Source: an uncultured Alphaproteobacteria bacterium (GTDB lineage: Bacteria; Pseudomonadota; Alphaproteobacteria; Rhodobacterales; Rhodobacteraceae). Taken from it: 64,000 nt of DNA. The stretch lies in assembly GCA_902540655.1 (NCBI GenBank), contig CACBNQ010000001.1, positions 1-64,000 of the forward strand, in the 5' to 3' direction. The notes under the pieces are model-generated. The model had not been told where the DNA came from and did no database searches. It was given only the letters and a program-made list of their open reading frames with translations. This document shows, one piece after another, positions 23,720 through 62,360 of this stretch (its first letter is position 1; the number at the start of each line of letters is the position of its first letter). Position numbers and translations under genes: made by a program.

Positions 23720-23750
23720 ACTAAACGAATGACGAATTAAAAATATTTTC
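23720..23750 (-). promoter_or_regulatory. Candidate alternative-sigma promoter (GAAAATA-N12-CATTCGTTTAGT)
   Basis: One of four 31-bp sites with the same layout; ends 28 nt upstream of the 23691 start. Confidence 0.6.
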
Positions 23751-23802
23751 ATATTCTCGGCGTTCAAGAATTTATTAAGCCAAATAAATAAGAAGAAACT
23801 CT

Positions 23803-24972
23803 CTAATTCTTCCGTCGTCTTACTCTTATTTCAATCCTTCTTCTCTCAGCATCATCCTTAATACCTAAGCCAGAAGTAAGTGTTTCATTTGGCAGAATAA
23901 GCTGACCCGCTGAATAAGGTAAAATCTCATATTCTTTGAGCTCTGGGATAGTTCTTAATACTCGTAGCACTGCGACTGCTCTTGCAAAACCTAGTCCCGC
24001 ATTATCCATCGCAACAGGGGTTTTGTTATCTTGCCCAAGAATAAATGCGATCGTGTTGGCATCTAGTGTGCTTCTTTCCTTTTTTCCTACTGCAACTTCG
24101 TCGGTATGCCCAATTACCTCAATAATATTTCCTTCATACTCTTTTAAATTTTTCAAGATTTTATCTTTAATATCAGTTGTCAATCTTTTGGAGAAAGCAG
24201 TGCTTAGAACTGCTTGGCCACTCATAAACGAAAATTCTTCTGCTTCTGGCAAATTTATTATTGGAGGACCTTTGCTATCTTTTTCTTTTGTTTTGAGTTC
24301 ATTAATAGTTTTATTTGCCTTTTCTAGCTCTTTCTCAGTTTGTTTTACCCGCTGACTTGCGTCCAATACATCTTTAATATTTTCTTTAGTGGCAAATATC
24401 TCGGGATTATCTCTTTCAAGTTCAGTCAGAACCTTCAGCCTCTCTTCTAACAAATTTAATTCCTCAAGAGGCTTATCGGCAAGCTTTGGATATAGGTCAC
24501 TGGTCATTAGTTTATTTACGAATTGCTCAGCAGTTGTAAGCTCGGCATATCTATCAAAATCAATTATTGTTGACGTGAATAAGGTTTCAGGATTTTTCTT
24601 AAATTTTTCCGCAAGTTCCTTAGCTCTTTGAGGGTCCTTGAGTTTAAGAAACTCAATATTAGAAAAAATAGCTACGGCAAGCTCTTGGTCGGTTTCATCA
24701 AATTTTGTATCTTTTTCAACCTTTAACTCCTTAAGCTGCTTTTGAATGGTTTCCCAGTCCTTCATCATAATCTCATTTTTTTGAGAGAGTTCCTTATTTT
24801 TCTTGTCTACTTTCTGCTTCTCGTCATAAATCCACTTGAACGCGATGAGCAAACAAAAGAGTAATAAAAGAAGTACCTCAGCCATCGTAAGACCAAAAAC
24901 AACTCCCCTCTGATAGCTTTTGTTCTCTTCAGATAATGTAACTTTTGTACTGTTTTCTAATTGGTCACTCAT
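23803..24972 (-). CDS. OmpA/MotB-like membrane protein
   Basis: N-terminal TM with acidic residue GLTMAEVLLLLLFCLLIAF (E32); C-terminal OmpA domain EVIGHTDEV...GFARAVAVLRVL...DDAERRRIEIRV. Confidence 0.85.
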   Translation of the reverse strand: MSDQLENSTKVTLSEENKSYQRGVVFGLTMAEVLLLLLFCLLIAFKWIYDEKQKVDKKNKELSQKNEIMMKDWETIQKQLKELKVEKDTKFDETDQELAVAIFSNIEFLKLKDPQRAKELAEKFKKNPETLFTSTIIDFDRYAELTTAEQFVNKLMTSDLYPKLADKPLEELNLLEERLKVLTELERDNPEIFATKENIKDVLDASQRVKQTEKELEKANKTINELKTKEKDSKGPPIINLPEAEEFSFMSGQAVLSTAFSKRLTTDIKDKILKNLKEYEGNIIEVIGHTDEVAVGKKERSTLDANTIAFILGQDNKTPVAMDNAGLGFARAVAVLRVLRTIPELKEYEILPYSAGQLILPNETLTSGLGIKDDAERRRIEIRVRRRKN

Positions 24973-26105
24973 TAAGTTTTTCCAAAAAGAAATTCAAATA
25001 TCCAATTTCTCTTTCTTTTATTTGGTCTTGGCGTTTCAACCAAGTCATCAGGGTCAGCTTTAGTTTGCTTTTGAGCCTTAAGTCTCTGTTTCGCAATTCT
25101 TTCCATCATTAATCTATTCGCCACACTTTGCTCTTCTGTGGTTTTGGCAATAGTCTGTCTTATGGACGCACCTATTGTATCTTTAGTACGATATTCTTCA
25201 GAAAACTTTTCCATTGCCTCTGCAATTTTTAACGTTGCTTGCAGTAACTTTTCTTGTCTTTCACTAAATTTCTCAGTATTAGATGCAAATTTTTCGATTT
25301 GATTAGACATTGCCTCTATTGCTTTGGATGATACGTTAATCATTTTGTTAATCGGCTCAGCTGACTTTTCTGAAGTGCTTCTAAGCGACTCCATTATAGT
25401 AGATGATATATCTTCAATATTTTTTTGAGTGTCTTTGAAGCCTTCTCCCACGAGCTGTTGAGAGACTTTTCGGAAAGTATCAAACTCCTCAACTGATTGG
25501 TTCAATTCTTTTGCTACACGTCGACTAGCTTCTGAAAGCTCCTGTCTAGATGCTTCTTCAACCTCATTTGGGTCGAACCTAAGCTGATTTACTGCAGTAC
25601 GCAAGACTATACCCCAGAGCGTGGACCAAACAGCATTTCCAAAATTCACTAGGATATTTTCCAAGGCATTTAAATCTAAAAGAGAATACGCTAGGGACCC
25701 TAGGGTAAATATAAAACCTAAGTAATAAAGATTGTCTCCCGTCTGGTCTTTTCTAGTATTTAAAGCATCAAAGTTCCAACAACATAATAAATAAGCAGAT
25801 AATATTAACAACGGTGTTATCAAAGACACCCAAAAGATATTTCCCAAAGCTTGTGCATCATTTTGTTCAGTTGGAACCACACCTTTTACTAGTATCAAGA
25901 GTATCATTCCCCCCACTGCAAATAACAGAAAAACTACAGCATTTAGTGTAGATGCACTTATCTTAGCAGTTGACTTTTTCAAGCTGCTTGCGGGTCTAGG
26001 AGATGCGCTCGGTGAAACTACAGGTTTTACCAGCGTACTCTTATCTTTAGAAGAACCTGTCTTGGGAATTTCAGTGGTGCTTTTCTTAACTGGTCTCTTT
26101 GCCAT
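24972..26105 (-). CDS. MotA/TolQ/ExbB-like membrane protein with long helical tail
   Basis: Multi-TM; VNFGNAVWSTLWGIVLRTAVNQLR resembles the conserved TM3-4 of proton-channel subunits, followed by a long helical tail; abuts the OmpA gene. Confidence 0.6.
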   Translation of the reverse strand: MAKRPVKKSTTEIPKTGSSKDKSTLVKPVVSPSASPRPASSLKKSTAKISASTLNAVVFLLFAVGGMILLILVKGVVPTEQNDAQALGNIFWVSLITPLLILSAYLLCCWNFDALNTRKDQTGDNLYYLGFIFTLGSLAYSLLDLNALENILVNFGNAVWSTLWGIVLRTAVNQLRFDPNEVEEASRQELSEASRRVAKELNQSVEEFDTFRKVSQQLVGEGFKDTQKNIEDISSTIMESLRSTSEKSAEPINKMINVSSKAIEAMSNQIEKFASNTEKFSERQEKLLQATLKIAEAMEKFSEEYRTKDTIGASIRQTIAKTTEEQSVANRLMMERIAKQRLKAQKQTKADPDDLVETPRPNKRKRNWIFEFLFGKT

Positions 26106-26107
26106 CT

Positions 26108-26968
26108 TTATAATTCTCCTGGAAGTGGTATGATTTGAAAAGTTCCCGGGTCAGTTTTATCAAAATACTGTTTGAAAACACTGAGCCAAAATTTTTTAAC
26201 CTCTGTAGTGCTTGGAGCGTTAGGATGATTTCTCTGGACTAACCATATTTCAATATCAATTTCACTAAAATTTGCACCATACTTCTCAAAAGCCCTGCTA
26301 CTCTCAAAATTTTCTAAAAGAGAATTTTTAAGGCCATACATCGAAAATACATCTGTGTTCTCTAGAAAGTCAGTAATGAATATAACCTTATTTCTAGTAG
26401 CACTAGCTCCATGAGATGCTGAATAATCTGTTGGCTTTTTTAAAAGCAAACTTACTTTTTGTATTGATTTAAGTAGCGGTGACTCATTTGCTTCAAAGCT
26501 CCTATTTAAAATTTTATCCACAGCGGTAAGAGAACTTGAAACAAATTGATTGTATTTTTTTTGTATTAAAATAGGGTTCGCAACTATTCCCTTTTGACCA
26601 AGGTTACTTAAGTCGCTCTTATTACCTGGATTGCATATTTCATCTAATGGTAGAGATAATCCTTCTCCACTGACAACATACAATTCCATTTTTCCATACC
26701 TCTGCAAATTTTTAATTTCATTCTCAATTTTGTTTTTTATACTTAGCTTTGTTATCTCCGTCACCCCATCGGTAGCGTCTAATAAAATTGCTAGAGTGTA
26801 AATTGGTCCCTCAACAGGGCAAAAGTTTTCAGTAAGTTCAAGCGACTTTTCTTGATTTCTGTACAAAAAGGAAACTACCACAACTACTCCACCAAGAAAA
26901 ACCAACAGAAAAAAAATTATCATTAGGCTTCCTAAAGATGTCGACCTGCGTCTACGGCGACGAACCAT
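26108..26968 (-). CDS. single-pass membrane protein with vWA-like domain
   Basis: N-terminal TM; LAILLDATDGVT (degenerate MIDAS) ... KVIFITDFLENT. Confidence 0.6.
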   Translation of the reverse strand: MVRRRRRRSTSLGSLMIIFFLLVFLGGVVVVVSFLYRNQEKSLELTENFCPVEGPIYTLAILLDATDGVTEITKLSIKNKIENEIKNLQRYGKMELYVVSGEGLSLPLDEICNPGNKSDLSNLGQKGIVANPILIQKKYNQFVSSSLTAVDKILNRSFEANESPLLKSIQKVSLLLKKPTDYSASHGASATRNKVIFITDFLENTDVFSMYGLKNSLLENFESSRAFEKYGANFSEIDIEIWLVQRNHPNAPSTTEVKKFWLSVFKQYFDKTDPGTFQIIPLPGEL

Positions 26969-28403
26969 TATTCATCTCCGTTTCCATACCAAGCTCATCC
27001 AAGACTTTAAATTGGCTTAAGCCTGACTCAAACTCTTCCTGTATCTGTTGTATAAGTTCTTTCAGCTCCTTCCGGATGTTGCTAATTTTTTTATCTAGAC
27101 TATTTCGGTTGACTTGATTGAGTTTAGAAAGTGATACTTTGTTTAAACGTTCATTTCTGTTCCAGCGTGCAGGAAATTTTCTACCCTTCCTTGCTTCAAT
27201 ATTTGCATCCCTATAAATTGCATGCAGACTATCGGAAGCTACTTGGAGATTTGTCTGAAAATTATCATATAAATTAGATAATTTTCCATATTGCGCGATC
27301 ACGTTCTCAAGTCCAGAAAGTCTGTTTGTCAAATCACCTCCTATGGTCTGAAATGTTGCTAAAATTCTCTTTTTCACATCATTTAAGCTTTGCAAGCAAT
27401 CTTCATATGTATCTCGATAAAATTCACTCTGTTCATTAAGACGTGATTGAAGAAAGGTATAACGTGGGTAAGGGTCATTCCAATAAATACCCTCCAATCC
27501 TGCTACAAAGGCAAAGAGCAACCCTATACCAACTAGAACCCAAGTTTCAGCATCGTTAAAAGCAAATGGAGCAAGTAAAAGTTTGTCCATGACAAATAGT
27601 CCCATTTCTGTTGACAGTATAGCCCCTGCCTCTCGCATGTGGCCAACTCCGATATTCAAACAGAAGGCAAAAGCTAAAAATATTAAAAGGAAAATAATGC
27701 CTACAAACTTCCTAATAATGCTAACATGGAAGAGCTGTCTGACAAAAATTAGATTTACCAAAAATGCAAACCCAATATTAACCAAAGTTATTGTAAACGC
27801 GACAATCGTCCCTCCAAAAAGGCCAGCTTCATTCCCTTTTGCGAAGAATGAACCATTCATCACCGTCTCAAACACAAAAATGAGTAAGATAAGAAGCACT
27901 TTTATGGTCTGGTGAAGCACAGTGGGAATATATGCAACCTTATTTTCCAACCGATTTTCTTTTCTGAATACATTGACTTCATTTTTTAAGTCTTTGAGGT
28001 AATTTCTTTCTATGTGTAAGGCATTTAATTGATCTTTAACTTCTGACCTGAATTCCATTACTGCCTCAGGTCCTAATTGGGTAATCCGTCCAAATTGCCC
28101 CTCAAAATCAAGGGAAGCTATTCTTCTATTATATGCTAGAGCCTGGTTCTCAGCTTGCTCTGAAGCGGTAACTTTTAGTGCTTCTAATCTTTCACTGATC
28201 TGAGTTTCAATTTCATCCAAAGCCTTTGAGGAAACCGGAGGTAAATCTGATGAACCTCTTTCTTCGCCTAACTTTTCTAGGTTTAATTCTCTGGCGATCA
28301 AGCCTACATTCACTTGCCCAAAATAATCGGCTGTAACTTTAAAATCATGTCCTGGCGAATACAGTGACTTTTTGATTCTTTCTAATGCAGTTCCCTCAGC
28401 CAT
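26952..28403 (-). CDS. multi-TM coiled-coil membrane protein, hypothetical
   Basis: Four or more TM segments (VLLILLIFVFETVMNGSFF, IVAFTITLVNIGFAFLVNLIF, FVGIIFLLIFLAFAFCL, WVLVGIGLLFAFVAGL) flanked by helical regions; overlaps the next gene by 17 nt. Confidence 0.65.
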   Translation of the reverse strand: MAEGTALERIKKSLYSPGHDFKVTADYFGQVNVGLIARELNLEKLGEERGSSDLPPVSSKALDEIETQISERLEALKVTASEQAENQALAYNRRIASLDFEGQFGRITQLGPEAVMEFRSEVKDQLNALHIERNYLKDLKNEVNVFRKENRLENKVAYIPTVLHQTIKVLLILLIFVFETVMNGSFFAKGNEAGLFGGTIVAFTITLVNIGFAFLVNLIFVRQLFHVSIIRKFVGIIFLLIFLAFAFCLNIGVGHMREAGAILSTEMGLFVMDKLLLAPFAFNDAETWVLVGIGLLFAFVAGLEGIYWNDPYPRYTFLQSRLNEQSEFYRDTYEDCLQSLNDVKKRILATFQTIGGDLTNRLSGLENVIAQYGKLSNLYDNFQTNLQVASDSLHAIYRDANIEARKGRKFPARWNRNERLNKVSLSKLNQVNRNSLDKKISNIRKELKELIQQIQEEFESGLSQFKVLDELGMETEMNNGSSP

Positions 28404-28423
28404 AGTTTCCTTAGATTAGAATT

Positions 28424-29173
28424 TTAAAAATTAATATAACCAATTAAAAGCAATACAGGAAATAAATATCTTACAAGTCTTAATTTCGGTAATACTAAAA
28501 TCAGGAGGATTCCACTTATGGGATAAATGAGCGAAAAAGCCAAATTTGTTATTGCATACAGTAAAATAGTTATCAGGCCAAGTATGGTAATTGGTCTTAA
28601 AACAAATCGCCAAATAGTGTAAAAGCTTCCTACATTTCCTCCATAGCTAATTTTATCATTACCGTAAAAATCCTCTGCATAGGGGAGTCCCTCTTCTTCT
28701 AATAACTTAATTGCATTATTCGCTCTTGAGCGTTCAATATTCCAAAGAAGATATAAAAAAGCAAAGATGAAAAAGTGTAAGCACCAATACAAAATTTCTA
28801 TTGTCTGGTTACTTGAGGACATTGCGTTTTGCTCCTCATCAGTAAGTGCTTGTTGACTATCATTAGTTTCCTCATTTTTCTCACTGAGTACAGAATCAAC
28901 AGCTTCAGCGATTTTTTTTGCCTCACTAAGCTCTTTAAAATTGGATTTTATGCCACATGATAGCTCTCTATTTTCCGCCTCGGACACGTGCCTTGAAAAA
29001 TTAGCTTTGCTCCATTTACGCTCATCTTTAATTACTTCTGTTGCCCAAAAACATAATTTTTTATCATCGCACGCCTCAGGATTTAGAACGCACCTTGAAT
29101 CCGCAAATACGAGAGTATTGGCTAGTAGTAAAAAAGAAATTAAAACAAGTTTAAGCAAAAATATCCAGACCAA
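28424..29173 (-). CDS. membrane protein with signal peptide and CxxxxxxC..LC..AT...KW...L.CG periplasmic motif
   Basis: ADSRCVLNPEACDDKKLCFWATEVIKDERKWSKANFSRHVSEAENRELSCGI followed by 4 TM-like segments. Confidence 0.65.
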   Translation of the reverse strand: MVWIFLLKLVLISFLLLANTLVFADSRCVLNPEACDDKKLCFWATEVIKDERKWSKANFSRHVSEAENRELSCGIKSNFKELSEAKKIAEAVDSVLSEKNEETNDSQQALTDEEQNAMSSSNQTIEILYWCLHFFIFAFLYLLWNIERSRANNAIKLLEEEGLPYAEDFYGNDKISYGGNVGSFYTIWRFVLRPITILGLITILLYAITNLAFSLIYPISGILLILVLPKLRLVRYLFPVLLLIGYINF

Positions 29174-29224: not shown

Positions 29225-29482
29225 TCAAATTACTTCATTTTCTTTGAGAAACTTTCTTAGGTCTTGTTGGGCTACGCATAATAATTGCCGTATTGGCCTC
29301 TTACCATAATGTTCTTTAAGCTTTACAAGAATAAAAGATGCGCTATCACTCACAAAAAACTCACATAACTCTTTCGACTCAAAACCTGGTTTTTTTTGCG
29401 GCTCTCTGAATATATAAGCGTCAAGCTTTCCATCTGACTGAATGCCAAACATGATAGCAACCAAATACCATAAGTCTGACAT
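29225..29482 (-). CDS. small two-Cys family protein
   Basis: LWYLVAIMFG...FESKELCEFFV...LLCVAQQ matches the local paralog pattern. Confidence 0.5.
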   Translation of the reverse strand: MSDLWYLVAIMFGIQSDGKLDAYIFREPQKKPGFESKELCEFFVSDSASFILVKLKEHYGKRPIRQLLCVAQQDLRKFLKENEVI

Positions 29483-29485: not shown

Positions 29486-29671
29486 CTACCTACCTGAAGA
29501 ATTTAATGCACCAGAAAAACAAGAGAGAAAGGGCTTAGGCATTACTGAGGAATTGTAACTTTTTTCAATTTTATAGCAATAGTCTGCATATGCCCCATAA
29601 TACACAACCCACTCATCTATTCTCAATATGTATATTAGCAATGTAGCTGATAATAAAAGTTTCCAATTCAT
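29486..29671 (-). CDS. small TM protein with DEW/YY motif
   Basis: LLLSATLLIYILRIDEWVVYYGAYADYCYKIEKSY; ATG 29671 overlaps the upstream stop; paralog of 61755-61958. Confidence 0.5.
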   Translation of the reverse strand: MNWKLLLSATLLIYILRIDEWVVYYGAYADYCYKIEKSYNSSVMPKPFLSCFSGALNSSGR

Positions 29672-29880
29672 TAATGTATAGTCATCGGTGTGATAACTCC
29701 TATTTGTAACAGGAGAAAGAAAAGCGTGGAAACAATCAAAAAACAACTAATCCACTTTTGAAATTTTATATTTTTATCCCTTTTCCGAATGATTTTGTAT
29801 CTACTATCTGCAAAAAGTTCTCTTCTCTGAGAAAGGCTATTTTTTTCTGCGTACTCAAAGTGGTTTTCATCAAATGGCAT
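29671..29880 (-). CDS. small TM protein, hypothetical
   Basis: ORF with C-terminal TM (FQKWISCFLIVSTLFFLLLQIGV), coupled to the next gene. Confidence 0.45.
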   Translation of the reverse strand: MPFDENHFEYAEKNSLSQRRELFADSRYKIIRKRDKNIKFQKWISCFLIVSTLFFLLLQIGVITPMTIH

Positions 29881-29906: not shown

Positions 29907-30185
29907 TTAGCCTCGTTTGTAATACTGGTCGTAACCTAATGATATTTTGCTAAGCTGTATCCTGTCTCCGCAGCCTAAAATTATAACTCGTCCATTCCTT
30001 CTATCTGCATGTCGTTTAAGCGCTGTGTCTAAAAGTACGTAGTTATCATGAAGGAATTGATAGCACTGACTTTGTGTAGAGAACTCTTTTTGGCTGAACT
30101 CAGTCAGTTCATTTTCATCACCATTACCCTGGGGATTGAAGATAAGGAGTTGTGCGAAAACGATCCATGTTGTGCTGTTAACCAT
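29907..30185 (-). CDS. small two-Cys family protein
   Basis: TTWIVFAQLLIF...FSTQSQCYQFL...GRVIILGCGDR; start taken at internal M, overlaps the preceding gene. Confidence 0.55.
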   Translation of the reverse strand: MVNSTTWIVFAQLLIFNPQGNGDENELTEFSQKEFSTQSQCYQFLHDNYVLLDTALKRHADRRNGRVIILGCGDRIQLSKISLGYDQYYKRG

Positions 30186-30477
30186 GATGCCTACCTCTTC
30201 GAGTTCGCTCACAGAACCATAATATAAAGAAGAGCAGTATTAGAAATGGTTGCAGCAGGACAAAAATTAAGATGTTTATTAGGTTATACCCAAGACCTGT
30301 AAGTTCGCCCCAAACTTGTAAAACATCGACACACCACCAAAAAAGCATATCAATAAGACTCATAAAACCAAAAAATGTAGCCTCTAAAAGCATATTAAGC
30401 TCCTCCTCGGCTGCGCTAAGACTATTGGGCAAAGTATCGATTACCGAAGGCTTTCTTGTCGGGATTTTAACTTCCAT
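30178..30477 (-). CDS. small TM protein (TGLGYNL-NI family)
   Basis: TGLGYNLINILIFVLLQPFLILLFFILW; near-identical motif in 36002-36208. Confidence 0.6.
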   Translation of the reverse strand: MEVKIPTRKPSVIDTLPNSLSAAEEELNMLLEATFFGFMSLIDMLFWWCVDVLQVWGELTGLGYNLINILIFVLLQPFLILLFFILWFCERTRRGRHHG

Positions 30478-30498: not shown

Positions 30499-30786
30499 TT
30501 ATTTGCAAAAGCGCATTTTCTTATGAAAGACGGTCACTATTACTTCATCTTTAGCAACAACCACTACCCCGTCTACTAACGCCGCCTTTGCAGGAGGCAA
30601 AACATTTTCTTGAATGAGTTTTTTAACCTTACGTTTAGAAATAAATTGTGAGATACAACTCGCATTTGCATACTTATATTTATCGGCATATTCCAAAATA
30701 AAATTCACAACCCAAGGCCTTATTCCTCTTTGCTGTGATCGCTTGATAGCATGATTTGAAAAAGTACTTTCAAGTATAACGCTCAT
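30499..30786 (-). CDS. DUF4258-like (RelE-superfamily-like) protein
   Basis: FSNHAIKRSQQRGIRPWVVNFILEYADKY...DGVVVVAKDEVIVTVFHKK. Confidence 0.65.
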   Translation of the reverse strand: MSVILESTFSNHAIKRSQQRGIRPWVVNFILEYADKYKYANASCISQFISKRKVKKLIQENVLPPAKAALVDGVVVVAKDEVIVTVFHKKMRFCK

Positions 30787-30817: not shown

Positions 30818-30848
30818 ACTAAACGAATGGGACAGAAAAAATATTGTG
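30818..30848 (-). promoter_or_regulatory. Candidate alternative-sigma promoter (CACAATA-N12-CATTCGTTTAGT)
   Basis: Same 12-mer as the 23720 site; 31 nt upstream of the 30786 start. Confidence 0.6.
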
Positions 30849-30886: not shown

Positions 30887-31132
30887 TCACGTAGTTCTGT
30901 CTAAACCATTATATTTTTTAAAATTAGACCTTGCACCACATGCCAACATTAGTAATTTTCCGCCGGGATATTTTTTATTAATGTGTTCGTTGAGAGTTTC
31001 GAGAACGTAACCTTCTTTTATTGTTAAATACTCAATACACCTTTCCTCAGTTTTAAATATCCCACCCTTATACTCTAAGTTAGTGGCCTCTCCATTAAAC
31101 GCCACGGTTGCCCAGATAATAAAAAGACTCAT
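30887..31132 (-). CDS. small two-Cys family protein
   Basis: FIIWATVAFNGEATNLEYKGGIFKTEERCIEYL...GKLLMLACGAR. Confidence 0.65.
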   Translation of the reverse strand: MSLFIIWATVAFNGEATNLEYKGGIFKTEERCIEYLTIKEGYVLETLNEHINKKYPGGKLLMLACGARSNFKKYNGLDRTT

Positions 31133-31138: not shown

Positions 31139-31381
31139 TCAGTTCCATGCGCCGAAGTCATTTCGCATAATATTTTTCCGTGCGGAGCACCCTATGACAA
31201 GAAGCCTACCCGTAGGTTGGATGCTTTGCCGTATGTCATCTACAACCTCACCAAAGTGCTTGTCGTGTTTAGCCATATATTCATAACACTCTTCTTTTGT
31301 TGAGAAATCGATTGCCTTATATTCCAATTGTTTTACTTCACCCTGAAAAAAGATTGTCGCAAAGACTATAAATTTATCCAT
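31139..31381 (-). CDS. small two-Cys family protein
   Basis: FIVFATIFFQGEVKQLEYKAIDFSTKEECYEYM...GRLLVIGCSAR; start taken at ATG 31381. Confidence 0.65.
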   Translation of the reverse strand: MDKFIVFATIFFQGEVKQLEYKAIDFSTKEECYEYMAKHDKHFGEVVDDIRQSIQPTGRLLVIGCSARKNIMRNDFGAWN

Positions 31382-31412
31382 TTCTTTCACCTATTTTTGT
31401 GCGCTCAAAAGT

Positions 31413-31443
31413 ACTTAACGAGTGGAAGATGGATTTTATTGCA
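31413..31443 (-). promoter_or_regulatory. Candidate alternative-sigma promoter (TGCAATA-N12-CACTCGTTAAGT)
   Basis: Same layout as the other three sites; 32 nt upstream of ATG 31381. Confidence 0.6.
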
Positions 31444-31512: not shown

Positions 31513-32073
31513 TTGGACCGCAAAACAAACTGGCAAGTTTTGATTGAAGATCAGCTTAAAGACTCATACCAAAAGCTGTTTGATAGGATGTTTTATCTAC
31601 AGAGTAAAAATGGTTATAGGAATGAAAGTGAAGCGGAAGAAATAGTTCACGACACGTGTGTACGATGCATAGAAAAAATGGACCAATTTGATGGGAAACA
31701 TTTTCTTGCCTGGGCACGTACGATCCTCGAAAGAATATACATAGATAAAGGACGGCGTAAAAAAAATTATGACGTTATCCTTACAGATATCAGAAACATG
31801 TCAGAGGCATATCTCAATGTTGACGTTTCAGAAGAAGTATATACCAACATAGCGTACGAAACTTGTCTTAAAAAACTTAGTGAAAAACAATATCAAGTTT
31901 TCTATTTGCAAATTAATGGACGCGATGATCGATCAGGGAAGCCAATGACGACTGAAAGAATGAGTAAGCTTCTAGGCATGCCACTTGGAACCCTCTTACC
32001 TCTCCTTGCCAGGGCAAAGAAATCATTTTCGAACTGTCTTTATAAACAATTACAGAGCACTAATGAGGAATGA
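31513..32073 (+). CDS. ECF-type RNA polymerase sigma factor
   Basis: Region 2 (EAEEIVHDTCVRCIEKMDQFDGKHFLAWARTILERIYIDKGRRKK) and region 4 (QVFYLQINGRD...MSKLLGMPLGTLLPLLARAKKSF); TTG start. Confidence 0.85.
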   Translation: MDRKTNWQVLIEDQLKDSYQKLFDRMFYLQSKNGYRNESEAEEIVHDTCVRCIEKMDQFDGKHFLAWARTILERIYIDKGRRKKNYDVILTDIRNMSEAYLNVDVSEEVYTNIAYETCLKKLSEKQYQVFYLQINGRDDRSGKPMTTERMSKLLGMPLGTLLPLLARAKKSFSNCLYKQLQSTNEE

Positions 32074-33404
32074 GTAGAATGAACTTTACAGATGAACAAA
32101 TAATGCAATATGTGGATGGCGATGCCAGTCCCGAACTTGTAAGAAATATAGGTGATGCTCGCGTGAAAGATAAAGATTTGGAAGCACGAATTTATAAGTT
32201 TCAATTAGCAAATACAATGATGCTAAAGCACACTAAAGAAAAGAAGGAAATGCCCGAACTTCTTTATGCAAGACTTCGAAAGAAAAGAATTGAAAAGGAA
32301 GAAAGTTTAGAAAAAAAGAAGAGTGCTGGCTTCAGCTTTGGCAACTTTGGTCGTGGAGCAATAGCCGCCTCAATAGCCGCTTTTGGTATTTTCATTGGGA
32401 CAGGCGCTTATCAACTGCAGACAACAAGAAATGAAAACTTGGCAAGGGAATTTTATTCTTCCTTCCAAGCAAGTGAGCGCTCTGATCAATTGGTAAACGA
32501 AATTAAACTTGCTAATGTGGGTGCTTTTTTAGAAAAAGAAAAATCTCTGAAAAAGAAGGGTCTTGAGCTGAAGTTTGATAAGCAACGGACATTATCCACA
32601 AATATGAAAGGCACAATTGATATTACTGTTAATCTTAAAAAAGATTTTTCATATAGATTAGAGAGTGGAGATTTTGTTGTGACTGGGGCTGAGCTTGGAA
32701 TAGATTTAAAGGGATTAAGCTCTGGCCTCATAACTTTAATTTATCAGGACTCAAAAGGAGAAAAACAGGTCCTCCTCGATAGAAAGCCCATAAAGAAAGG
32801 TGAAACTAAGTCGCTTGGCCCATATGAAGTTATTGGCCCCGTTGGTCTAGACTACATTCAGTATATTCATACACCTGAGAATAATGAGGAGAAAATTGAA
32901 TCTCAGATAATTGGATTCACAATTCTAAAAAATGGAGACAATCTTTTAAAAACGGCATCAAGTAATTTTATGGCGGTACCAAGCTCCCTATTTTCCAGAA
33001 CGGTGAAAATAGAGTTGGGTAATAAAATCATTGATAAGTCGATATTATCAATAGCCAATAATGCATCAGAGACTGGTAATGAGATTAGCGATCCTAATAC
33101 TGCTATTTGGCAGAGAGACGGAAGTTTTTATATAGATGTAAATGATAGTGGGTATGCAAATATAATATCCCATCGAAATAAAGAAAATACAGGATGGCAG
33201 ATATCTATAGACCGGGACGACAACAGAGTTATAGATGGTCTTGGGTTGGTATCAATTGATAATGAGGGAAAGTATTCATTCCGATGGCTGTTGGATGAAA
33301 ACGAAGATGGTGTTGTTGATAGAGTTGCTATCGATAAGGATGGTGATTGGAAAACTGAGAAAGTCTACCCGCTTTATCCTAAAGGATCCTCATTCAGTTT
33401 TTAG
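32070..33404 (+). CDS. anti-sigma-like single-pass membrane protein with EF-hand-like C-terminal loops
   Basis: FTDEQIMQYVDGDASPE anti-sigma-like N-terminus, one TM (AIAASIAAFGIFIGTGAY), ATGA overlap with the sigma gene, C-terminal DRDDNRVIDG/DENEDGVVD/DKDGDWKTE. Confidence 0.75.
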   Translation: MSRMNFTDEQIMQYVDGDASPELVRNIGDARVKDKDLEARIYKFQLANTMMLKHTKEKKEMPELLYARLRKKRIEKEESLEKKKSAGFSFGNFGRGAIAASIAAFGIFIGTGAYQLQTTRNENLAREFYSSFQASERSDQLVNEIKLANVGAFLEKEKSLKKKGLELKFDKQRTLSTNMKGTIDITVNLKKDFSYRLESGDFVVTGAELGIDLKGLSSGLITLIYQDSKGEKQVLLDRKPIKKGETKSLGPYEVIGPVGLDYIQYIHTPENNEEKIESQIIGFTILKNGDNLLKTASSNFMAVPSSLFSRTVKIELGNKIIDKSILSIANNASETGNEISDPNTAIWQRDGSFYIDVNDSGYANIISHRNKENTGWQISIDRDDNRVIDGLGLVSIDNEGKYSFRWLLDENEDGVVDRVAIDKDGDWKTEKVYPLYPKGSSFSF

Positions 33405-36012
33405 TGCGCACAAAGATAAATTCGCCACCTCGACTATCTACATTCTTAATTTGGGTATATGTAGGCACTTGATTACTATTTAGCTCAACGCTGTTTTTTA
33501 TGCTTTGATCAAAAAGTTGCATTGCAGTAATAGGTTGTGAAACTTTAGTAAGTGCTAACAAAAAATACTTAACAAAAATCGAATTTTCTCCTTGAGCAGC
33601 ATCAAAGATAGGTTCATCACCACCAGCAGTCATTACCCATCGTGACTTCAATTGACTTTTCTGTTCGAGGAGCTCTCTTTGAATTGATTTTACAGCGTTT
33701 TTCTCCTTCAGTCGTTTCTCTGCAAATATTCCTGAGAAACATGAGTCAATAACGAGTAAAATATGTTTGGCATCTGAGGCTTCTATTTCGTCTAAGATAG
33801 CACTATTGGAAATCCATGTGTACTTCTTCTCAGGGTCCGCATCAACTGGAAGCCAGTGACCTCTATCAGTCTTTTTATCTTTTTCACCGTGGCCAGAATA
33901 AAAAATTAATAAGTTATCACTTTCAGTAAGTTTGGTTCTGTAACTATATAATGTATCCAAAATCTGTGTTCGAGATTGGTTTATCAGCAATTCGGTTTTA
34001 AAATTGAATTTTGTTTTAAGTATCTCATTTACAGCCTTCGCATCAACAGCTCCTGTGTTTAATTTATCGACGTTTTGATAATTATCATTTCCAATTATAA
34101 GAGCATAATAATTACCAAACTCTATCTCTTTACCCTCATCAAAGACAGGATCACTTTTTATATCCGTCGAAGATGACAAAACCTCCACTAAAAAAGATGC
34201 TTCTGAAATTCCGAGGGATAAAGCTTTTTGAGCTTTAAGGAGGGCCATATTACTATCTTTCTGCGTTCCATCTCCCCTGAAATATGCCTGAGCAAGTAAA
34301 TAATGGGCACGACCATCATCGTTCTCGGAGGCCTTATTAAGCCACTCGAATGCCATGAATGGATTTTTTGTTGTACCCACGCCTTTGCTGTAAAACTCGG
34401 CTAACTCCCTTTGAGCCACAACGAGCCCATTTAATGCAGCACTCTGCATCAATTTGAATGCTTCTGTCGGGTTAGGAGAAATATGTACTCCTGAAGAATA
34501 CATTTTTGCCAGATGGTATTTAGCGTTAGCATCATCCTGATCAGCGCTTTTTCGGAACCATTCTATTGCGTCTTGGATGTTTTTGATAACTCCTTGGCCA
34601 TCAAGATAGGCTAACGCCACATTTGTCATCGCCTCTCTATAGCCAAGATTAGCGGATTTAACAAACCAACCAAAAGCCTGTTGCATATCTTTAGGGGCTC
34701 CTAAACCATCTCTTAAAGCTCTGCCAACTTCATTTTTCGCAATCTTATTTCCTCCCTCTGCAGATAGAAGAAACCATTTGTATGCCTCTGAAAGGTTTTT
34801 CTCAACGCCACTCCCAGTGCTGAAAGCCAATCCTAATTCCAGTTGCGCGTCAGGATTATTTTTATCAGATGCAAGCATAAACCATTTGAAAGCGTCTTTT
34901 AAATTCTGTTGAACACCCATACCTGTTTTAAAAAGAAGCCCAACATCATATTGGCTATTTGCATCTCCTTGATTTGCCGCCTTTTCAAACAAGGTGAAGG
35001 CTTTATTTATATCTCTCTCAACAAAATCACCTTGTAGATACAGCTGACCAAGAGCAAACAAACTGTCAACATGTCCTTCATCTGCTGCTTCTTCAAGCAT
35101 TTCTAATGCCTTTAATCTATCCTGTCTAATCCCATCACCATTAAAATATGCCTGTGCTAGGGCATGTTTTGCTAAGATGTTGCCTTTATCAGCGGCTTTA
35201 CTGTACCACTGTATTCCATCTCTTTTATTTTTTGGGACTCCGAGACCTTTGTAGAGCGCATCCCCAACTCTAAACTGACCTTCAGCGTTTCCCTCTTTAG
35301 CTGTCTCAGCAAAATTTCTAAAAGACGTTACAAGATTTCTTTCAATACCTTCCCCAAATAGATAGTTATTTCCAAGTCTTATGAGACGCTGGTGCTCTAA
35401 GTTCGTCATCGCTCTTTCATACCATTTTTCAGCCTCTGCTTTACTGCGTTCAACACCTTGACCCGCTAAATATCTATCCCCCAATCGCATTTGCGAATAG
35501 GGGTTATCTGCTTCCGCACCACGTTTAAGCCATTCAAGCGCCTCTGTAATATCTTTTACTACTCCCTCACCCTCTAAATAAATTTGGCCAAGGCTTGCAA
35601 AGGCCATTGGGTTTCCATTCTCTGCCGCCATTTTGTACCAAATAATAGCTTCGTTTATATCTTTTTGTGTTCCTAGACCTCTTCGTATTGCATCAGCAAG
35701 GAGTACCTGTGCATCGGAATTTCCAGCAGAAGCAGCCAGACGAAACCACTTAATAGCCGCTTCAGTATTTTTCCTGATACCGTTTTTTCCCTCGGAATAT
35801 ATTAGTGCCAACTCCAACTGACTTTTTGGAATTCCAGCCTCTGCTGACCTTTTAAGTTTTACTAAATCCAGTTTTTCGGCAGCATATAAAGCAAAGCCAA
35901 AGCACAATATACTTAAAGTCATCATAAGAACGGTTAATACTTGACTGGACTTTACCCAAGCTAAAAATTGTGCTGAATTGAGAGGCCTTAAGTTTAAAAA
36001 ATTAGAAACCAT
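33394..36012 (-). CDS. Sel1-repeat protein with C-terminal caspase (peptidase C14) domain
   Basis: More than 10 Sel1/TPR-like repeats (A..W...AA..G...A...L...Y..G.GV..); caspase His LLIFYSGHGEKD and Cys LLVIDSCFSGIF; N-terminal TM. Confidence 0.92.
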   Translation of the reverse strand: MVSNFLNLRPLNSAQFLAWVKSSQVLTVLMMTLSILCFGFALYAAEKLDLVKLKRSAEAGIPKSQLELALIYSEGKNGIRKNTEAAIKWFRLAASAGNSDAQVLLADAIRRGLGTQKDINEAIIWYKMAAENGNPMAFASLGQIYLEGEGVVKDITEALEWLKRGAEADNPYSQMRLGDRYLAGQGVERSKAEAEKWYERAMTNLEHQRLIRLGNNYLFGEGIERNLVTSFRNFAETAKEGNAEGQFRVGDALYKGLGVPKNKRDGIQWYSKAADKGNILAKHALAQAYFNGDGIRQDRLKALEMLEEAADEGHVDSLFALGQLYLQGDFVERDINKAFTLFEKAANQGDANSQYDVGLLFKTGMGVQQNLKDAFKWFMLASDKNNPDAQLELGLAFSTGSGVEKNLSEAYKWFLLSAEGGNKIAKNEVGRALRDGLGAPKDMQQAFGWFVKSANLGYREAMTNVALAYLDGQGVIKNIQDAIEWFRKSADQDDANAKYHLAKMYSSGVHISPNPTEAFKLMQSAALNGLVVAQRELAEFYSKGVGTTKNPFMAFEWLNKASENDDGRAHYLLAQAYFRGDGTQKDSNMALLKAQKALSLGISEASFLVEVLSSSTDIKSDPVFDEGKEIEFGNYYALIIGNDNYQNVDKLNTGAVDAKAVNEILKTKFNFKTELLINQSRTQILDTLYSYRTKLTESDNLLIFYSGHGEKDKKTDRGHWLPVDADPEKKYTWISNSAILDEIEASDAKHILLVIDSCFSGIFAEKRLKEKNAVKSIQRELLEQKSQLKSRWVMTAGGDEPIFDAAQGENSIFVKYFLLALTKVSQPITAMQLFDQSIKNSVELNSNQVPTYTQIKNVDSRGGEFIFVRTKN

Positions 36013-36208
36013 TTCGTTTTTTTCTCTTTGACACTTCAATCCTCCAAAGAACGAAGAAAAGTAAGATAAGTAGCGGCTGAAGAATTATAAATATAATTAT
36101 ATTTAAAAGATTATAACCTAGACCCGTCCACCTTCCCCAATCTTGAAGTATTTGACGCAAGCCCAAAAAAGCCAATCCACATCCTTTTGAAATTCTTTTG
36201 CTGACCAC
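36002..36208 (-). CDS. small TM protein (TGLGYNL-NI family)
   Basis: WTGLGYNLLNIIIFIILQPLLILLFFVLW; overlaps the caspase start. Confidence 0.55.
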   Translation of the reverse strand: MVSKRISKGCGLAFLGLRQILQDWGRWTGLGYNLLNIIIFIILQPLLILLFFVLWRIEVSKRKKRNGF

Positions 36209-36809: not shown

Positions 36810-37895
36810 ATGGAGAGGAAAATGATTAGTAGAGATGATGTAGACATTGATAAAATCATGTTGAATCCTGATAATCCAAGACTTGCTGAAGCAAAACACA
36901 ATAACCAATCCAAATTAGACCAGGCAGAGGTTGATTATTATTTGAAAGCGTCTGCAGATGACCACCAAAAAGCTTTGAGAGCATCTATAATAACAGTTGG
37001 AAGGATTACAGAGCCTATCCATATTCAGAAATTGAAAAAGTCTGAGGATGGATTTGAGTATGTTGTCTTGGAAGGGAACAATCGCCTTAAGGTATATAAA
37101 GACCTACATAAGGATTTTGCAGATAAAAGTGATTATAAAGGTCAATGGAAGAAAATCCCGTGTGAAGTATATGAGAACTATGACAGGGATATTTATGACC
37201 AAATACAATTAACTTCCCATGTTATAACAAAAAAACCATGGGAACCCTATGCTCGAGGGGAATATTTATACAAGTTACAGAAATCTGGTAAGACACTTGG
37301 CGAACTGGCCGCGATGTGTGGTGGCGATGTTAGAAAGAAAAATTTGCAGCAAGAAATAGATGCTTATAAGCATATGCAGAAATGGAGAGACCCAGAGAGA
37401 GATAGTAAACAGAATGAACTTGATTATAACCCTGGCGAATACCAAAAATTTTATCAATATCAGTTAAAAAAATCGAGTTTTAATGATATGGGCTTATCGG
37501 AAGACATTTTCTTGGACATGATAGCCCAAGACAAAATTTCCTATGCTAGAGATGTTAGAAAGCTGGATACAGTTTGGTTAAATCGAAATTTTACGCCTGA
37601 AGAAAATGAGCAGGTAAAAAACGAATTAATGAAAGATGGCGGTGACACAATACAAGCATTTGCAGAACGTGACCGATTATTGGCTGCGGGTAAAACGGAC
37701 GCTCTTAAGGTAGACGAAATCATCAAACAGGCAAAAAGCCTCACGAGTGGTATAAGAAGCTTTACCCAGCTAAGCGAAAGAGAAAAATTAGCAAAAGACG
37801 AAAACAGCGTTCAAGTTTTTGACCTTTTGGCTGAAGAAGTGAATGATTTTATTGAAGAACTAAGAGACATACAAAAATACATAGTAAACAACTAA
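36810..37895 (+). CDS. ParB/sulfiredoxin-fold protein 1
   Basis: IMLNPDNPRL ... YVVLEGNNRLKVYKDL ParB-like box. Confidence 0.8.
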   Translation: MERKMISRDDVDIDKIMLNPDNPRLAEAKHNNQSKLDQAEVDYYLKASADDHQKALRASIITVGRITEPIHIQKLKKSEDGFEYVVLEGNNRLKVYKDLHKDFADKSDYKGQWKKIPCEVYENYDRDIYDQIQLTSHVITKKPWEPYARGEYLYKLQKSGKTLGELAAMCGGDVRKKNLQQEIDAYKHMQKWRDPERDSKQNELDYNPGEYQKFYQYQLKKSSFNDMGLSEDIFLDMIAQDKISYARDVRKLDTVWLNRNFTPEENEQVKNELMKDGGDTIQAFAERDRLLAAGKTDALKVDEIIKQAKSLTSGIRSFTQLSEREKLAKDENSVQVFDLLAEEVNDFIEELRDIQKYIVNN

Positions 37896-37900
37896 ACTTC

Positions 37901-38359
37901 ATGCCCGACGCTGCACATGATATGTTTGAAACGTACCTACGGAAGTTTTTAAAAGACCGCTTCCCAGATTACTATAACTCTGAAAAATATGAAATTTATG
38001 GCAAATGGGACCCGAGCTTAACCTCAAATAAAAAGGAACGAAGATTTCGCGGTGCTATTCCAGATTTAGCCATTTTATCGAAAGAATCTTATGAGGTCGT
38101 TTGTATCGGTGAGGCAAAAAGGCTAGAAGATTTTAGTACAAAAGGATTGGACCTGTCCTACCGTAGTAAGATCCAGTCAATGGAGTATGTGGATTGGCTT
38201 TTAGCGCATAAAGATCAATATAAGAGGCTCGAGTTGGTTTACTCTGTACCAAGAACATTTCATGCGACTACAAACAACATCTTAAAGAGAATGCTATCAA
38301 AAAAAAGTATTCAAATTGACACATTTGTTATAAGTAAATGGCCATTGGAAAATGCATAA
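37901..38359 (+). CDS. PD-(D/E)XK-like nuclease-fold protein
   Basis: GAIPDLAILSKESYEVVCIGEAKRLED fits PD-x(n)-ExK; overlaps the next ORF. Confidence 0.6.
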   Translation: MPDAAHDMFETYLRKFLKDRFPDYYNSEKYEIYGKWDPSLTSNKKERRFRGAIPDLAILSKESYEVVCIGEAKRLEDFSTKGLDLSYRSKIQSMEYVDWLLAHKDQYKRLELVYSVPRTFHATTNNILKRMLSKKSIQIDTFVISKWPLENA

Positions 38360-39803
38360 TAAATACCAACATAGGCTGGAGCCACTTGACTTTCAGGAAA
38401 AAGCTTTCAATAAATTCAAATCCTCTGATATCGCAGCAATTTTTTTTGAGCAGGGTTTAGGAAAGACTAAAATTGCAATTGACTTAATGCTCCATTGGTT
38501 GCAAAACGGTGACCTTGACAAAATGTTTATCGTTGTCAAAAAAGGTCTCGTAAATAACTGGTATAGTGAAATTAAAAAACATACTTTCATGATCCCAGCA
38601 ATACTTTCCAATACGAAATCGAAAAATACTAGTGTTTTTATGTCTCGTGTAAATGTTTTGGTTTTGAACTATGAAATAATACTGAACGAATTTGAGAGAA
38701 TTTATGATCTTGGAAAGATTAGAAATCTTGGCATAATTTTAGATGAATCGGCAAAAATAAAAAACCCTGAAGCAAATATTTCAAAGAAGCTTCACCAAAT
38801 TTCAGACAGGTTCAAAAAAAAAGTAATCATGACAGGAACTCCTTCAGCAAATAGGCCCGAGGACTATTGGTCCCAAATATTTTTTTTAGATAGAGGCAAA
38901 TCTCTGGGCGAAAAACACAAGGTATTTTTTGAAAAAGTAAAAATTTCTAATGATCTTGTAGATGACCCTCAGTATCAAAATAAATTAATTAAAAACATAG
39001 AAGATATCAAAGAAAAGATTGCAGGTTTCACATTAAGAGAAACTAAAGATAGCTCGAGTATAGAACTCCCTGAAAAAATATTTGAAAATATCTTTATAGA
39101 ATTTTCTTCTGAACAAGGAAAAATTTATACGAAAGCGCTCACGGAATTGAGAACAAAAATAGAGAAGGAAAACATCTCATTTGAAGATAACGTAGAGGCA
39201 TTTTTAAAAAGAATAATTAGAATAAGACAAATTTGTTCGAACCCCAAAATGCTTGACTTAAGTTTTAACGAAAAGACTAACAGGTTACAAAAAACTCTGG
39301 AGCTAGTTCGATCGATAGCTGAGAAAAATGAAAAATGTATTATATGGACCTCCTTTAAATATAATATCAATTATTTGAAAGTATTCTTAGAGAAATTTAA
39401 TCCCGTTGCTTTAGACGGATCAATGCAGAATGATGAAAGAAAATTGAGTGTAACAAGGTTTCTTGAGCAAGAAGATACCAAGGTTTTGATAGCAACTCCT
39501 CAGTCCTCTAAAGAAGGACTTACTTTAACAGTTGCAAATCACTGTATATATTTTGACAGAACACTCAGCTTAGATGATTATCTTCAGTCACAAGACCGAA
39601 TACACAGAATAGGTCAGACTAAAAATTGCTTTTATTATAATCTTATAATAAAAAACTCGGTTGACGAGTGGGTTGAAAGTCTTATTGACGCAAAATCTTT
39701 ATTCGCAAAGCTTTCTATTGGAGACATATCTAATGTTGAGTTTTCAGAAAAAATAAAGTTTAATTTTGGAGAATTAATAAAAAAGGTACTCGAGGTAAGT
39801 TAG
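38352..39803 (+). CDS. SNF2-family SF2 helicase/translocase
   Basis: Walker A FEQGLGKTKIAI, motif II LDESAKIKN, motif III MTGTPS, motif VI QDRIHRIGQT. Confidence 0.92.
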   Translation: MHNKYQHRLEPLDFQEKAFNKFKSSDIAAIFFEQGLGKTKIAIDLMLHWLQNGDLDKMFIVVKKGLVNNWYSEIKKHTFMIPAILSNTKSKNTSVFMSRVNVLVLNYEIILNEFERIYDLGKIRNLGIILDESAKIKNPEANISKKLHQISDRFKKKVIMTGTPSANRPEDYWSQIFFLDRGKSLGEKHKVFFEKVKISNDLVDDPQYQNKLIKNIEDIKEKIAGFTLRETKDSSSIELPEKIFENIFIEFSSEQGKIYTKALTELRTKIEKENISFEDNVEAFLKRIIRIRQICSNPKMLDLSFNEKTNRLQKTLELVRSIAEKNEKCIIWTSFKYNINYLKVFLEKFNPVALDGSMQNDERKLSVTRFLEQEDTKVLIATPQSSKEGLTLTVANHCIYFDRTLSLDDYLQSQDRIHRIGQTKNCFYYNLIIKNSVDEWVESLIDAKSLFAKLSIGDISNVEFSEKIKFNFGELIKKVLEVS

Positions 39804-40903: not shown

Positions 40904-41009
40904 TTAAGGTTTCGGCCTAATTTTTAGGACTCATAATTTTTAAAAAATAAAGATATGGAAACCACGACTTAACGCTTTAACTTTGTGTTGCTCGCTTGTA
41001 TAATACGCC

Positions 41010-42626: not shown

Positions 42627-42628
42627 AG

Positions 42629-46528: not shown

Positions 46529-46555
46529 AGACGCTTCATTACACTATTTAGCTTT

Positions 46556-56935: not shown

Positions 56936-57028
56936 TTGCGTGACCTATTTTTATTAATAACTTGAGCTTAACTTATCATTTTTATATCGTTAAACTCCAT
57001 AAGAAAAATTATTATATGAGCCTTTCGA

Positions 57029-60378: not shown

Positions 60379-60484
60379 GCTATATCATATTGCAACAGAT
60401 TAACACCGGATGATATCGAGAAGCTTTTAATAGAATTTTCCCTAGAATTAGTTGCTAATATAAATTGAAACAAACAACTTCGTT

Positions 60485-61252
60485 TTAGTCTGAGTTCACT
60501 ACGAAGCAAGAAAATTTTCTCTTAAGTAGTAATGCGCAAGCTTCACTAGGCTCAGTTACAGAACCAGTTGTCTCGGCTATTACTCTAAAGCTCAATGTAT
60601 TATCTTTTTTTCTTTCAATTACTTTAATTTCATATTTATCGATGATATCTCTATTTCTTTCAAGGACAAACTCCCCCAACCTATTCGCTCTTTCACGATC
60701 ACTGAATGATCCTAAAAAAATACGTTTGTTTTTTGAAGCTAAAGGTTTTGTCTGAAAGAAGCGCGTGTACGTTGCTGGGCCTTCAGGCTGGGAAATCAAC
60801 ACGTCAATTCGTATAAAGCTCTGCTTATGAAGCATTATCCCCTTTCTGCGTTTGCGAGGAAAAACCACTTTTTTATCAGCATTTATTGCTTTCTTGGAAA
60901 ACATAAGCGGTCCCCTAGAGAGTTCCGTATGAATTTCACTTTGTGAAGAATTATAAAAGACCTCTAAGTCACCAGATACTGGTGGGTCAATTACAATGCG
61001 AAAAGGAGTATCAAGATTAATCACTGAATTATTTTTCATTAAAATTTCAGGTACGCCATACTTAAGTTTTATGACTTTCTTTGGGTCTTTAGCTATGTTC
61101 AGCTCTCTTATTTGTTCCTCAAAATCTTCAATGGTTAGAGTTTTTAAAACAATCTTACCGTCTAGTGAAACATCAGCAAGCGCACTGCTTACGTGCGCTA
61201 CATAAGAGAAAACTAGGATCAGAAAAATTAAGAAATATTTTATTAAAAACAT
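60485..61252 (-). CDS. secreted protein with SPOR-like C-terminus
   Basis: Signal peptide; RIFLGSFSDRERANRLGEFVLE...CALLLKRKFSCFVV. Confidence 0.6.
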   Translation of the reverse strand: MFLIKYFLIFLILVFSYVAHVSSALADVSLDGKIVLKTLTIEDFEEQIRELNIAKDPKKVIKLKYGVPEILMKNNSVINLDTPFRIVIDPPVSGDLEVFYNSSQSEIHTELSRGPLMFSKKAINADKKVVFPRKRRKGIMLHKQSFIRIDVLISQPEGPATYTRFFQTKPLASKNKRIFLGSFSDRERANRLGEFVLERNRDIIDKYEIKVIERKKDNTLSFRVIAETTGSVTEPSEACALLLKRKFSCFVVNSD

Positions 61253-61366
61253 GCGAACAGAATAATTGTTCAGGCATAAAAGTATATAAAAATTCTATAC
61301 AGTTTTTAACTTATAGTTACTAATCTCATACCAATTATTTAGGGCTATATATTTTAGGTAGACTGA

Positions 61367-61711
61367 TCAATCTTTTTTAAAATCCGAAAATTTTATCAAT
61401 TTAGCGGTTCTACCTTTATCTTCGACTGTTGAGACTTTCATATTGAAGGCATTAGACATATAAGGACCAAACTTATCCCTGATATATTCGTCTTCTTCTA
61501 AAAGTTCTGGAACCCGCATCATCATTTGGGCTAGATTTATCAATGCATTAAATTGACTTGACCCCAATGGACTATTTTCAAATGCATCGAGATTAATGTC
61601 TATATTCCCGTTCCATTTTCTGTCTCTCGTTAAGCCTGGTTTGATACGTATTATTACCTCCTCAGGCTCAAATTCTAAAACGTTACTATTATTCATTCTG
61701 ACCATCCTCAA
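61367..61711 (-). CDS. hypothetical protein
   Basis: Complete ORF in the same-direction cluster. Confidence 0.55.
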   Translation of the reverse strand: MRMVRMNNSNVLEFEPEEVIIRIKPGLTRDRKWNGNIDINLDAFENSPLGSSQFNALINLAQMMMRVPELLEEDEYIRDKFGPYMSNAFNMKVSTVEDKGRTAKLIKFSDFKKD

Positions 61712-61754
61712 TTTTTTTGTATCTAAAGACTACCCTCTTTTCACCTAGAATGTC

Positions 61755-61958
61755 TTAAAAATATAATTCTGGATAAAGACGCCAAACTTTATAATGGTAT
61801 ATACCGAGCTCGATGTAGTACTCAATCCACTCATCTACACCCAGAACCCATATTACTATTGTCTTTAGTACTAAGAACAAGACTTTTCTCAGTATCTTTA
61901 AATGCAACCTACTTTCTTTTGTGGCTAACTCAATTTCCTGATAATTATTAATCATCAC
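61755..61958 (-). CDS. small TM protein with DEW/YY motif
   Basis: VIWVLGVDEWIEYYIELGIYHYKVWRLY resembles 29486-29671. Confidence 0.5.
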   Translation of the reverse strand: MMINNYQEIELATKESRLHLKILRKVLFLVLKTIVIWVLGVDEWIEYYIELGIYHYKVWRLYPELYF

Positions 61959-62005
61959 AAAGTAATTAATGGGATGGTTTTTACGTAGTCCGAATGCAAT
62001 TTTGC

Positions 62006-62239
62006 TTAGATATCTTTTGAAATGGCTATTTTACGGCTGTATTTTAATCCATGCTCTGGTCTGCATTGAAATTGCTCTAGACTATATTTTGGTAAGACCC
62101 TACTAGAGTCTCTGTAAATCTTTTTGTTACGGTCAAGGCATTGGTCAATACTATAGTATGGGCCGAGCTTGTCTGACAAAAATAAGCATTCTTGCCTCAC
62201 TGTCATAAAGTTACATATAGTAATCATCGCATAAATCAT
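62006..62239 (-). CDS. small two-Cys family protein (divergent)
   Basis: YYSIDQCLDRNKKIYRDSS...FQCRPEH; same position next to a DEW protein; motif site upstream. Confidence 0.45.
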   Translation of the reverse strand: MIYAMITICNFMTVRQECLFLSDKLGPYYSIDQCLDRNKKIYRDSSRVLPKYSLEQFQCRPEHGLKYSRKIAISKDI

Positions 62240-62329
62240 ACTGACCCTTCCTCCACTTTAAAAAATTCGATAAACAATAATTTGAATGTTCAAAGCCCCT
62301 TATTGTTCGCTGACTAGGTTGATATAAAA

Positions 62330-62360
62330 ATTAAACGAATGAATTGTTTAAATTATTGCA
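62330..62360 (-). promoter_or_regulatory. Candidate alternative-sigma promoter (TGCAATA-N12-CATTCGTTTAAT)
   Basis: Same layout as sites at 23720, 30818 and 31413; 91 nt upstream of 62239. Confidence 0.55.

Follow-up and report, generated by a model that had tools for sequence, protein, structure and literature searches.

Four copies of a 31-bp two-block motif lie on the minus strand of a 64,000-nucleotide stretch of an uncultured Rhodobacteraceae bacterium (contig CACBNQ010000001.1, positions 1 to 64,000; hereafter the window), and very probably represent −35/−10 promoters of an extracytoplasmic function (ECF) sigma factor that is encoded at 31513–32073 of the same stretch and carried by a genomic island at tRNA-Ser. 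The copies of this motif (motif A, consensus RCAATA-N12-CATTCGTTNART) lie at 23720, 30818, 31413, and 62330 and match AATA-N12-CAYTCGTTWART without mismatch; as a sequence-only reading of the window had stated, the distance from AATA to CGTT is 16 nt in all of them. The same reading had proposed that the sites form the regulon of the island's own sigma factor. This predicted regulon is supported by the presence of sites in all seven sigma-encoding genomes and by their orientation, and we accept it mainly because the register of motif A agrees with that of a different motif in a second, unrelated ECF system.

The draft genome (1.66 Mb, 84 contigs, 72% complete) contains five exact copies of motif A instead of the four originally counted, the additional one being located at C1:65564, 1.5 kb past the end of the window. 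The five copies belong to a single element integrated at tRNA-Ser, with the tRNA on one side of them and the first repeat of its 3′ end on the other. The only other match with at most one mismatch (C66:276) sits in a terminator-like CCCACTCGTTAAAAACGAGTGGG hairpin and was not regarded as a site, and matches with three mismatches were dropped, as their number (11 observed, 8 expected) did not exceed chance level. A matrix trained exclusively on six other genomes and applied to both strands of C1:1-79000 ranked the five sites first to fifth (scores 34.6, 29.8, 24.9, 21.2, and 17.3), followed by an intragenic non-site match with a score of 15.4; in random sequence, scores of at least 20 occurred at 3 per 30 million positions. 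Three of the window sites are close to a start codon, as had been claimed, with gaps between motif end and start of 28 nt at site 3 (23720–23750; ATG 23691), 31 nt at site 2 (30818–30848; ATG 30786), and either 22 nt to a GTG or 31 nt to ATG 31381 at site 1 (31413–31443), which diverges from the sigma gene. Site 4 (62330–62360) has a 90-nt leader to ATG 62239, and site 5, at C1:65564, lies approximately 240 nt from its first gene.

Orthologs of this sigma factor (type A) with 88–99% identity were found in six uncultured marine alphaproteobacterial single-cell genomes by scanning a genome collection, and in a sample of 22 draft genomes of the genus the type-A sigma is present in seven. The three conserved units headed by sites 1, 2, and 3 carry motif A in 7/7 sigma-encoding genomes, always co-oriented with the downstream gene and mostly 18–31 nt from its start codon. 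The columns of RCAATA and CATTCGTT each carry 0.8–1.9 bits of group-weighted information, and most columns of the spacer carry no more than about 0.4 bits; the length of the spacer is invariant. With a leave-one-genome-out matrix, the conserved sites were the top matches in every locus; six of the seven genomes have sites that follow the strict pattern, and the seventh has sites that follow a relaxed one. Among the 15 genus genomes without the sigma gene, no equivalent site was detected outside chance matches in coding sequence. A strict exact match in one of them (G162) was discarded, being located inside an L,D-transpeptidase-like coding sequence, and matches to ACAATATCAAAAGCATGGAATTCGTTTTGT were likewise set aside, as they are present in most genus genomes whether or not these encode the sigma factor.

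A natural control is provided by genome G166, which was reached via a search with TM99, a small membrane protein encoded in the site-2 operon. G166 lacks the type-A sigma and encodes another ECF sigma (type B; Sigma70_r2 and r4_2 both above the cut-off) together with an anti-sigma factor and a caspase; next come genes for TM99, a two-Cys protein of 60% identity, a DEW protein, and a protein of 70 aa. The two sigma types share no alignment beyond chance. A second genome, G156, has a type-B sigma of 61% identity with an anti-sigma gene and a divergently encoded caspase. At the position of the G166 locus that corresponds to the motif-A sites, motif A is absent; instead, a motif B (GGAACT-N15-TCTCTAC) precedes the operon of a 118-aa protein, sigma, and anti-sigma factor and the TM99/two-Cys operon in G166, and the 113-aa protein/sigma operon and a two-gene membrane cassette in G156. 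Motif B has no further matches in the 22 genomes, all four being at type-B loci, and the reversed pattern yielded none in the same genomes. In all nine sites examined (the five motif-A sites of the window's genome and the four motif-B sites) the start of the −35 hexamer and the TC of the −10 block are 21 nt apart. Motif identity thus tracks sigma identity, because the second, unrelated ECF system has another motif with the same geometry; a shared register with different blocks would be expected for ECF holoenzymes that differ in their DNA contacts.

Other explanations of motif A have to be weighed against recognition by the type-A sigma. That it is an operator of an island repressor or activator overlapping the promoters would agree with its proximity to start codons and with the presence of other DNA-binding proteins on the island, such as the AlpA-like protein encoded at 21851. 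However, the motif has no dyad symmetry, its orientation to the gene is constant, and its two fixed blocks have −35/−10 spacing, with the ECF-like GGAACT/TCTCTAC pair of type B in the identical register; we consider an operator highly improbable. Scarcely more probable is that the sites are promoters of another host sigma and that the island sigma controls something else. Co-occurrence by itself is weak proof in this regard, because sigma gene and sites are physically linked and the two readings cannot be separated on this basis, but intergenic sites of this kind are missing from the sigma-less members of the genus, and the homologous operon of G166 carries a different motif that fits its own sigma type.

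A more limited objection concerns the reach of the regulon: sites 1–3 might be true promoters of the type-A sigma and sites 4 and 5 chance or decayed copies, so that the regulon would not extend to 62–66 kb. The 90-nt and approximately 240-nt leaders and the lack of orthologous sites in the relatives would fit this view, yet sites 4 and 5 score 21.2 and 24.9, in a range that random sequence hardly ever attains, they are co-oriented with their units within the same att-bounded element, and the site-4 unit contains a DEW paralog and a domain also found in the type-B anti-sigma. We thus regard this possibility as unlikely, albeit less so than the previous two. Some weight against recognition of all five sites by the type-A sigma nevertheless remains in these longer leaders, and further points have to be added. 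The drafts are 58–91% complete, which renders absences soft, and the type-B control rests on two genomes. No plus-strand motif A precedes 31513 in the matrix scans, and the type-A sigma appears not to be autoregulated via motif A, whereas the type-B sigma operons are preceded by their own motif; autoregulation through the own motif is common among ECF sigma factors but not universal. Finally, the assignment of the anti-sigma factor is based on gene position and a weakly modelled N-terminus.

The gene at 31513 (plus strand), which had been recognised as an ECF sigma gene from the sequence, is confirmed as such by matches to TIGR02937 (50.1 bits, cut-off 42.9, spanning residues 35–175) and Sigma70_r2 (34.1 bits, cut-off 24); its region 4 stays below the threshold of Sigma70_r4_2 (14.4 vs. 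25.7). Beyond the genus, only a generic ECF sigma with 31% identity was retrieved, and no type-A relatives were found in 385 genomes of the class, IMG/VR, plasmids, or phages. The sigma gene overlaps by 4 nt with a gene for a 444-aa protein (32070–33404, plus strand), which is a probable anti-sigma factor with a helical N-terminus, a beta-rich C-terminus, and a borderline transmembrane (TM) segment near residues 96–114. It belongs to no Pfam family, a DUF4384-like match being a hint only (E 0.06), and an overlapping gene of this kind is present in 7/7 genomes. A model of the full-length protein was unusable (predicted local distance difference test score, pLDDT, of 38), and the N-terminus alone was modelled well. 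Convergent with this gene is one for a C14 caspase with Sel1 repeats (33394–36039, minus strand), which has an N-terminal hydrophobic segment and an intact His/Cys dyad, both conserved among the type-A caspases. The Sel1-caspase is linked to the sigma in all seven type-A genomes. The caspase domain PF00656 occurs in exactly 9 of the 22 genus genomes, once in each and every time next to a sigma gene of type A or B, in three gene arrangements (convergent, same strand downstream, and divergent). This linkage, the dyad, the hydrophobic segment, the single borderline TM segment of the anti-sigmas, and a domain shared between the type-B anti-sigma and the site-4 unit suggest that an exported caspase acts on the anti-sigma factor.

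According to this model, the anti-sigma would keep the sigma factor at the membrane in the resting state, and the linked, probably exported caspase would most likely sense an envelope or infection signal and then initiate anti-sigma cleavage, a step for which we see about equal chances of being right or wrong. RNA polymerase with the type-A sigma would start transcription a few bases past CGTT and transcribe the two-Cys pair (site 1), the DUF4258/TM99/two-Cys operon together with any cargo inserted behind it (site 2), the lipoprotein gene (site 3), the unit at 62239–60485 (site 4), and, beyond the window, a small gene and ShosT/ShosA-like genes (site 5).

All genes of these units in the window are on the minus strand. 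The site-1 unit encodes two two-Cys proteins (31139–31390 and 30887–31132; assigned by alignment and orthologs). The site-2 operon starts with a DUF4258-like gene (30499–30786; Pfam score 23.0, below the cut-off of 25; orthologs 72–88%), followed by TM99 (30178–30477; 99 aa, two TM segments), a two-Cys protein (29907–30182) whose type-B homolog is 60% identical, a 69-aa small membrane protein (29671–29880), the small membrane protein DEW (29486–29671; both with orthologs), and a further two-Cys protein (29225–29482; alignment A2; orthologs in three loci). The lipoprotein-like gene behind site 3 (23287–23691) has orthologs of 30–38% identity in 6/6 loci and a C-terminal two-Cys domain; matches of Two-Cys101 to lipoprotein orthologs had E-values of 8.6e-5 and 0.008. 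The claim that every unit encodes a two-Cys protein is therefore correct for these three units and not for the other two: the first gene of the site-4 unit (62006–62239) encodes a small protein with four Cys and without BLAST match to the two-Cys family, and the site-5 unit has no two-Cys protein. The site-4 unit (60485–62239) further comprises a DEW paralog (61755–61958), 61367–61711, and 60485–61252, a domain of which is similar (E 4e-15) to the C-terminal region of the anti-sigma of type B. The site-5 unit consists of an 85-aa gene and overlapping ShosT-like and ShosA-like genes (PADLOC, 6.3e-19 and 1.8e-71), which correspond to the phosphoribosyltransferase and DprA-like pair of the anti-phage system ShosTA.

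The two-Cys family was modelled as a small domain with the order beta-beta-alpha-alpha-beta and no signal peptide (pLDDT 85 for 30887–31132), and a fold search with this model gave no significant match. Signal peptides were rejected, as the model has a beta strand at the N-terminus and TM-like segments are missing, and a periplasmic disulfide role of these proteins is unsupported for this reason. The C-terminal half of TM99 has relatives in marine viral contigs (56 from IMG/VR, L086-L141), and in L090 and L095 the TM99-like gene stands beside ribonucleotide-reductase-like and terminase-like genes; TM99 resembles a family of small viral membrane proteins that the island has recruited. Elsewhere in the window's genome, another TM99-like gene stands ahead of the truncated beginning of a caspase gene (G000:C41:184-694, L067), a decayed copy of the system.

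The core that recurs in the six relatives consists of the genes for sigma, anti-sigma, Sel1-caspase, two-Cys proteins, TM99, DUF4258-like protein, and lipoprotein, with certain small genes lost or broken in single loci. Behind the site-2 operon, the loci are variable: the window has a five-gene membrane cassette with motor-like features (23803–29173, minus strand; 23803–24972, 24972–26105, 26108–26968, 26952–28403, and 28424–29173), L027 has approximately 7 kb of other genes, L028 an ankyrin gene, and L024 nothing. None of the other six sigma loci has this cassette, which is a probable cargo of the operon. By eye, 23803–24972 shows one TM segment and an OmpA/MotB-like tail; the cassette yielded only weak ZorA matches in coiled-coil regions (3.5e-6; 24972–26105 among the genes) and no match to a ZorB family model. 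It might possibly constitute an undescribed motor-type defence system, with a relationship to Zorya that is at most tentative. In L025, the site-3 lipoprotein gene is followed on its own strand by a gap of 226 bp, two small genes, and then a PbeC gene, and Mza genes adjoin the L024 locus. Together with the ShosTA-like pair at site 5, these genes render a defence role of the regulon plausible. The genes C1:65066-65323, before ShosTA, and L025:3252-3545, before the PbeC region, share the pattern Y-PD-W-(SDGT) (12/27 identical, E 9e-5).

We read the island as inserted at tRNA-Ser(TGA) (20267–20356, plus strand), probably in tandem with other islands. The tRNA is followed on the same strand by a tyrosine integrase (20432–21721; Pfam PF22022/PF13356/PF00589) and an AlpA-like excisionase or regulator (21851–22048; Pfam AlpA/HTH_17), and tRNA-Ser is paired with an integrase also in L028. 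Its 3′-terminal 14 bp, CACCTCCTCCGCCA, are repeated at C1:65710 and C1:70197 and are also contained in the longer GACACCTCCTCCGCCA within the loci of three relatives. Copies of GACACCTCCTCCGCCA, which matches the tRNA-Ser 3′ end, were observed at C1:65710, C1:70197, L025:14093, L026:19883, and L027:17595, and probably mark the attachment (att) sites at which islands were inserted in tandem in several genomes.

The system resembles RpoE-RseA of E. coli, an ECF sigma with a membrane anti-sigma, in its small two-domain sigma, a two-block promoter of fixed spacing, and an overlapping downstream gene whose product is helical at the N-terminus and probably contains one TM segment. It differs in being island-borne and apparently controlling the island's own genes, in the linkage to a caspase-fold instead of a DegS-type peptidase, and in the type-A sigma lacking the motif on its own strand. 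CASP of type III-E CRISPR comprises Csx29 (TPR-CHAT), Csx30, and CASP-sigma, with putative sigma sites before cas1 and two unknown genes in its locus (PMC10028731). It shares with the island the combination of a repeat-domain caspase-clan peptidase, a sigma inhibitor, and an ECF sigma, and the location of putative sigma sites in the locus itself (PMC10028731), but the island has Sel1 and C14 caspase domains instead of CHAT, an N-terminal hydrophobic segment, and a probable anti-sigma of membrane type; neither Cas7-11 nor any other Cas gene was recognised among the window genes examined, a survey that was not exhaustive. CalpL-CalpT-CalpS is likewise a protease/anti-sigma/ECF sigma cascade tied to defence, in which a Lon/SAVED protease responds to cyclic tetra-adenylate (cA4) with cytoplasmic logic (PMC11417357). 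Sigma factors of group ECF54 are linked to CHAT-domain caspase-clan peptidases, with proteolytic control proposed, and were described without anti-sigma factor (PMC8999054); compared by description, the island also links an ECF sigma to a caspase-clan peptidase but, unlike ECF54, has an adjoining anti-sigma candidate.

If the caspase step is true, the island would be a membrane-based equivalent of the cascades of protease, anti-sigma, and sigma factor of type III CRISPR, and an example of a mobile island inducing its own defence cargo. In its widest form, which we put forward tentatively and would rather doubt than endorse, this idea describes a portable immune regulon, in which the ECF sigma, membrane anti-sigma, and exported caspase of the tRNA-Ser island would jointly sense envelope attack, interchangeable cargo (the Zorya-like motor, ShosTA, Pbe) would be placed behind sigma-specific promoters, and rival islands would have diverged to orthogonal codes (motif A and motif B). 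Regulon and control logic are predicted here from sequence alone for an uncultured marine lineage, with two sigma types, two promoter codes, and common gene families forming a built-in natural control.

Further defence-like genes lie in the neighbourhood. The plus-strand genes at 36810–43936, encoding a ZorD/DpdE-like SNF2 helicase, PD-Lambda-5_A-like proteins, and a HATPase protein, may constitute a defence operon, one that lacks motif A. At 44000–49189, an AIPR_N/DUF3427 protein adjoins a UvrD-like helicase (GajB/NERD-UvrD-like). A second ShosT-like phosphoribosyltransferase gene (62462–63313), without adjacent same-strand ShosA, is situated 1.1 kb from the ShosTA-like pair.

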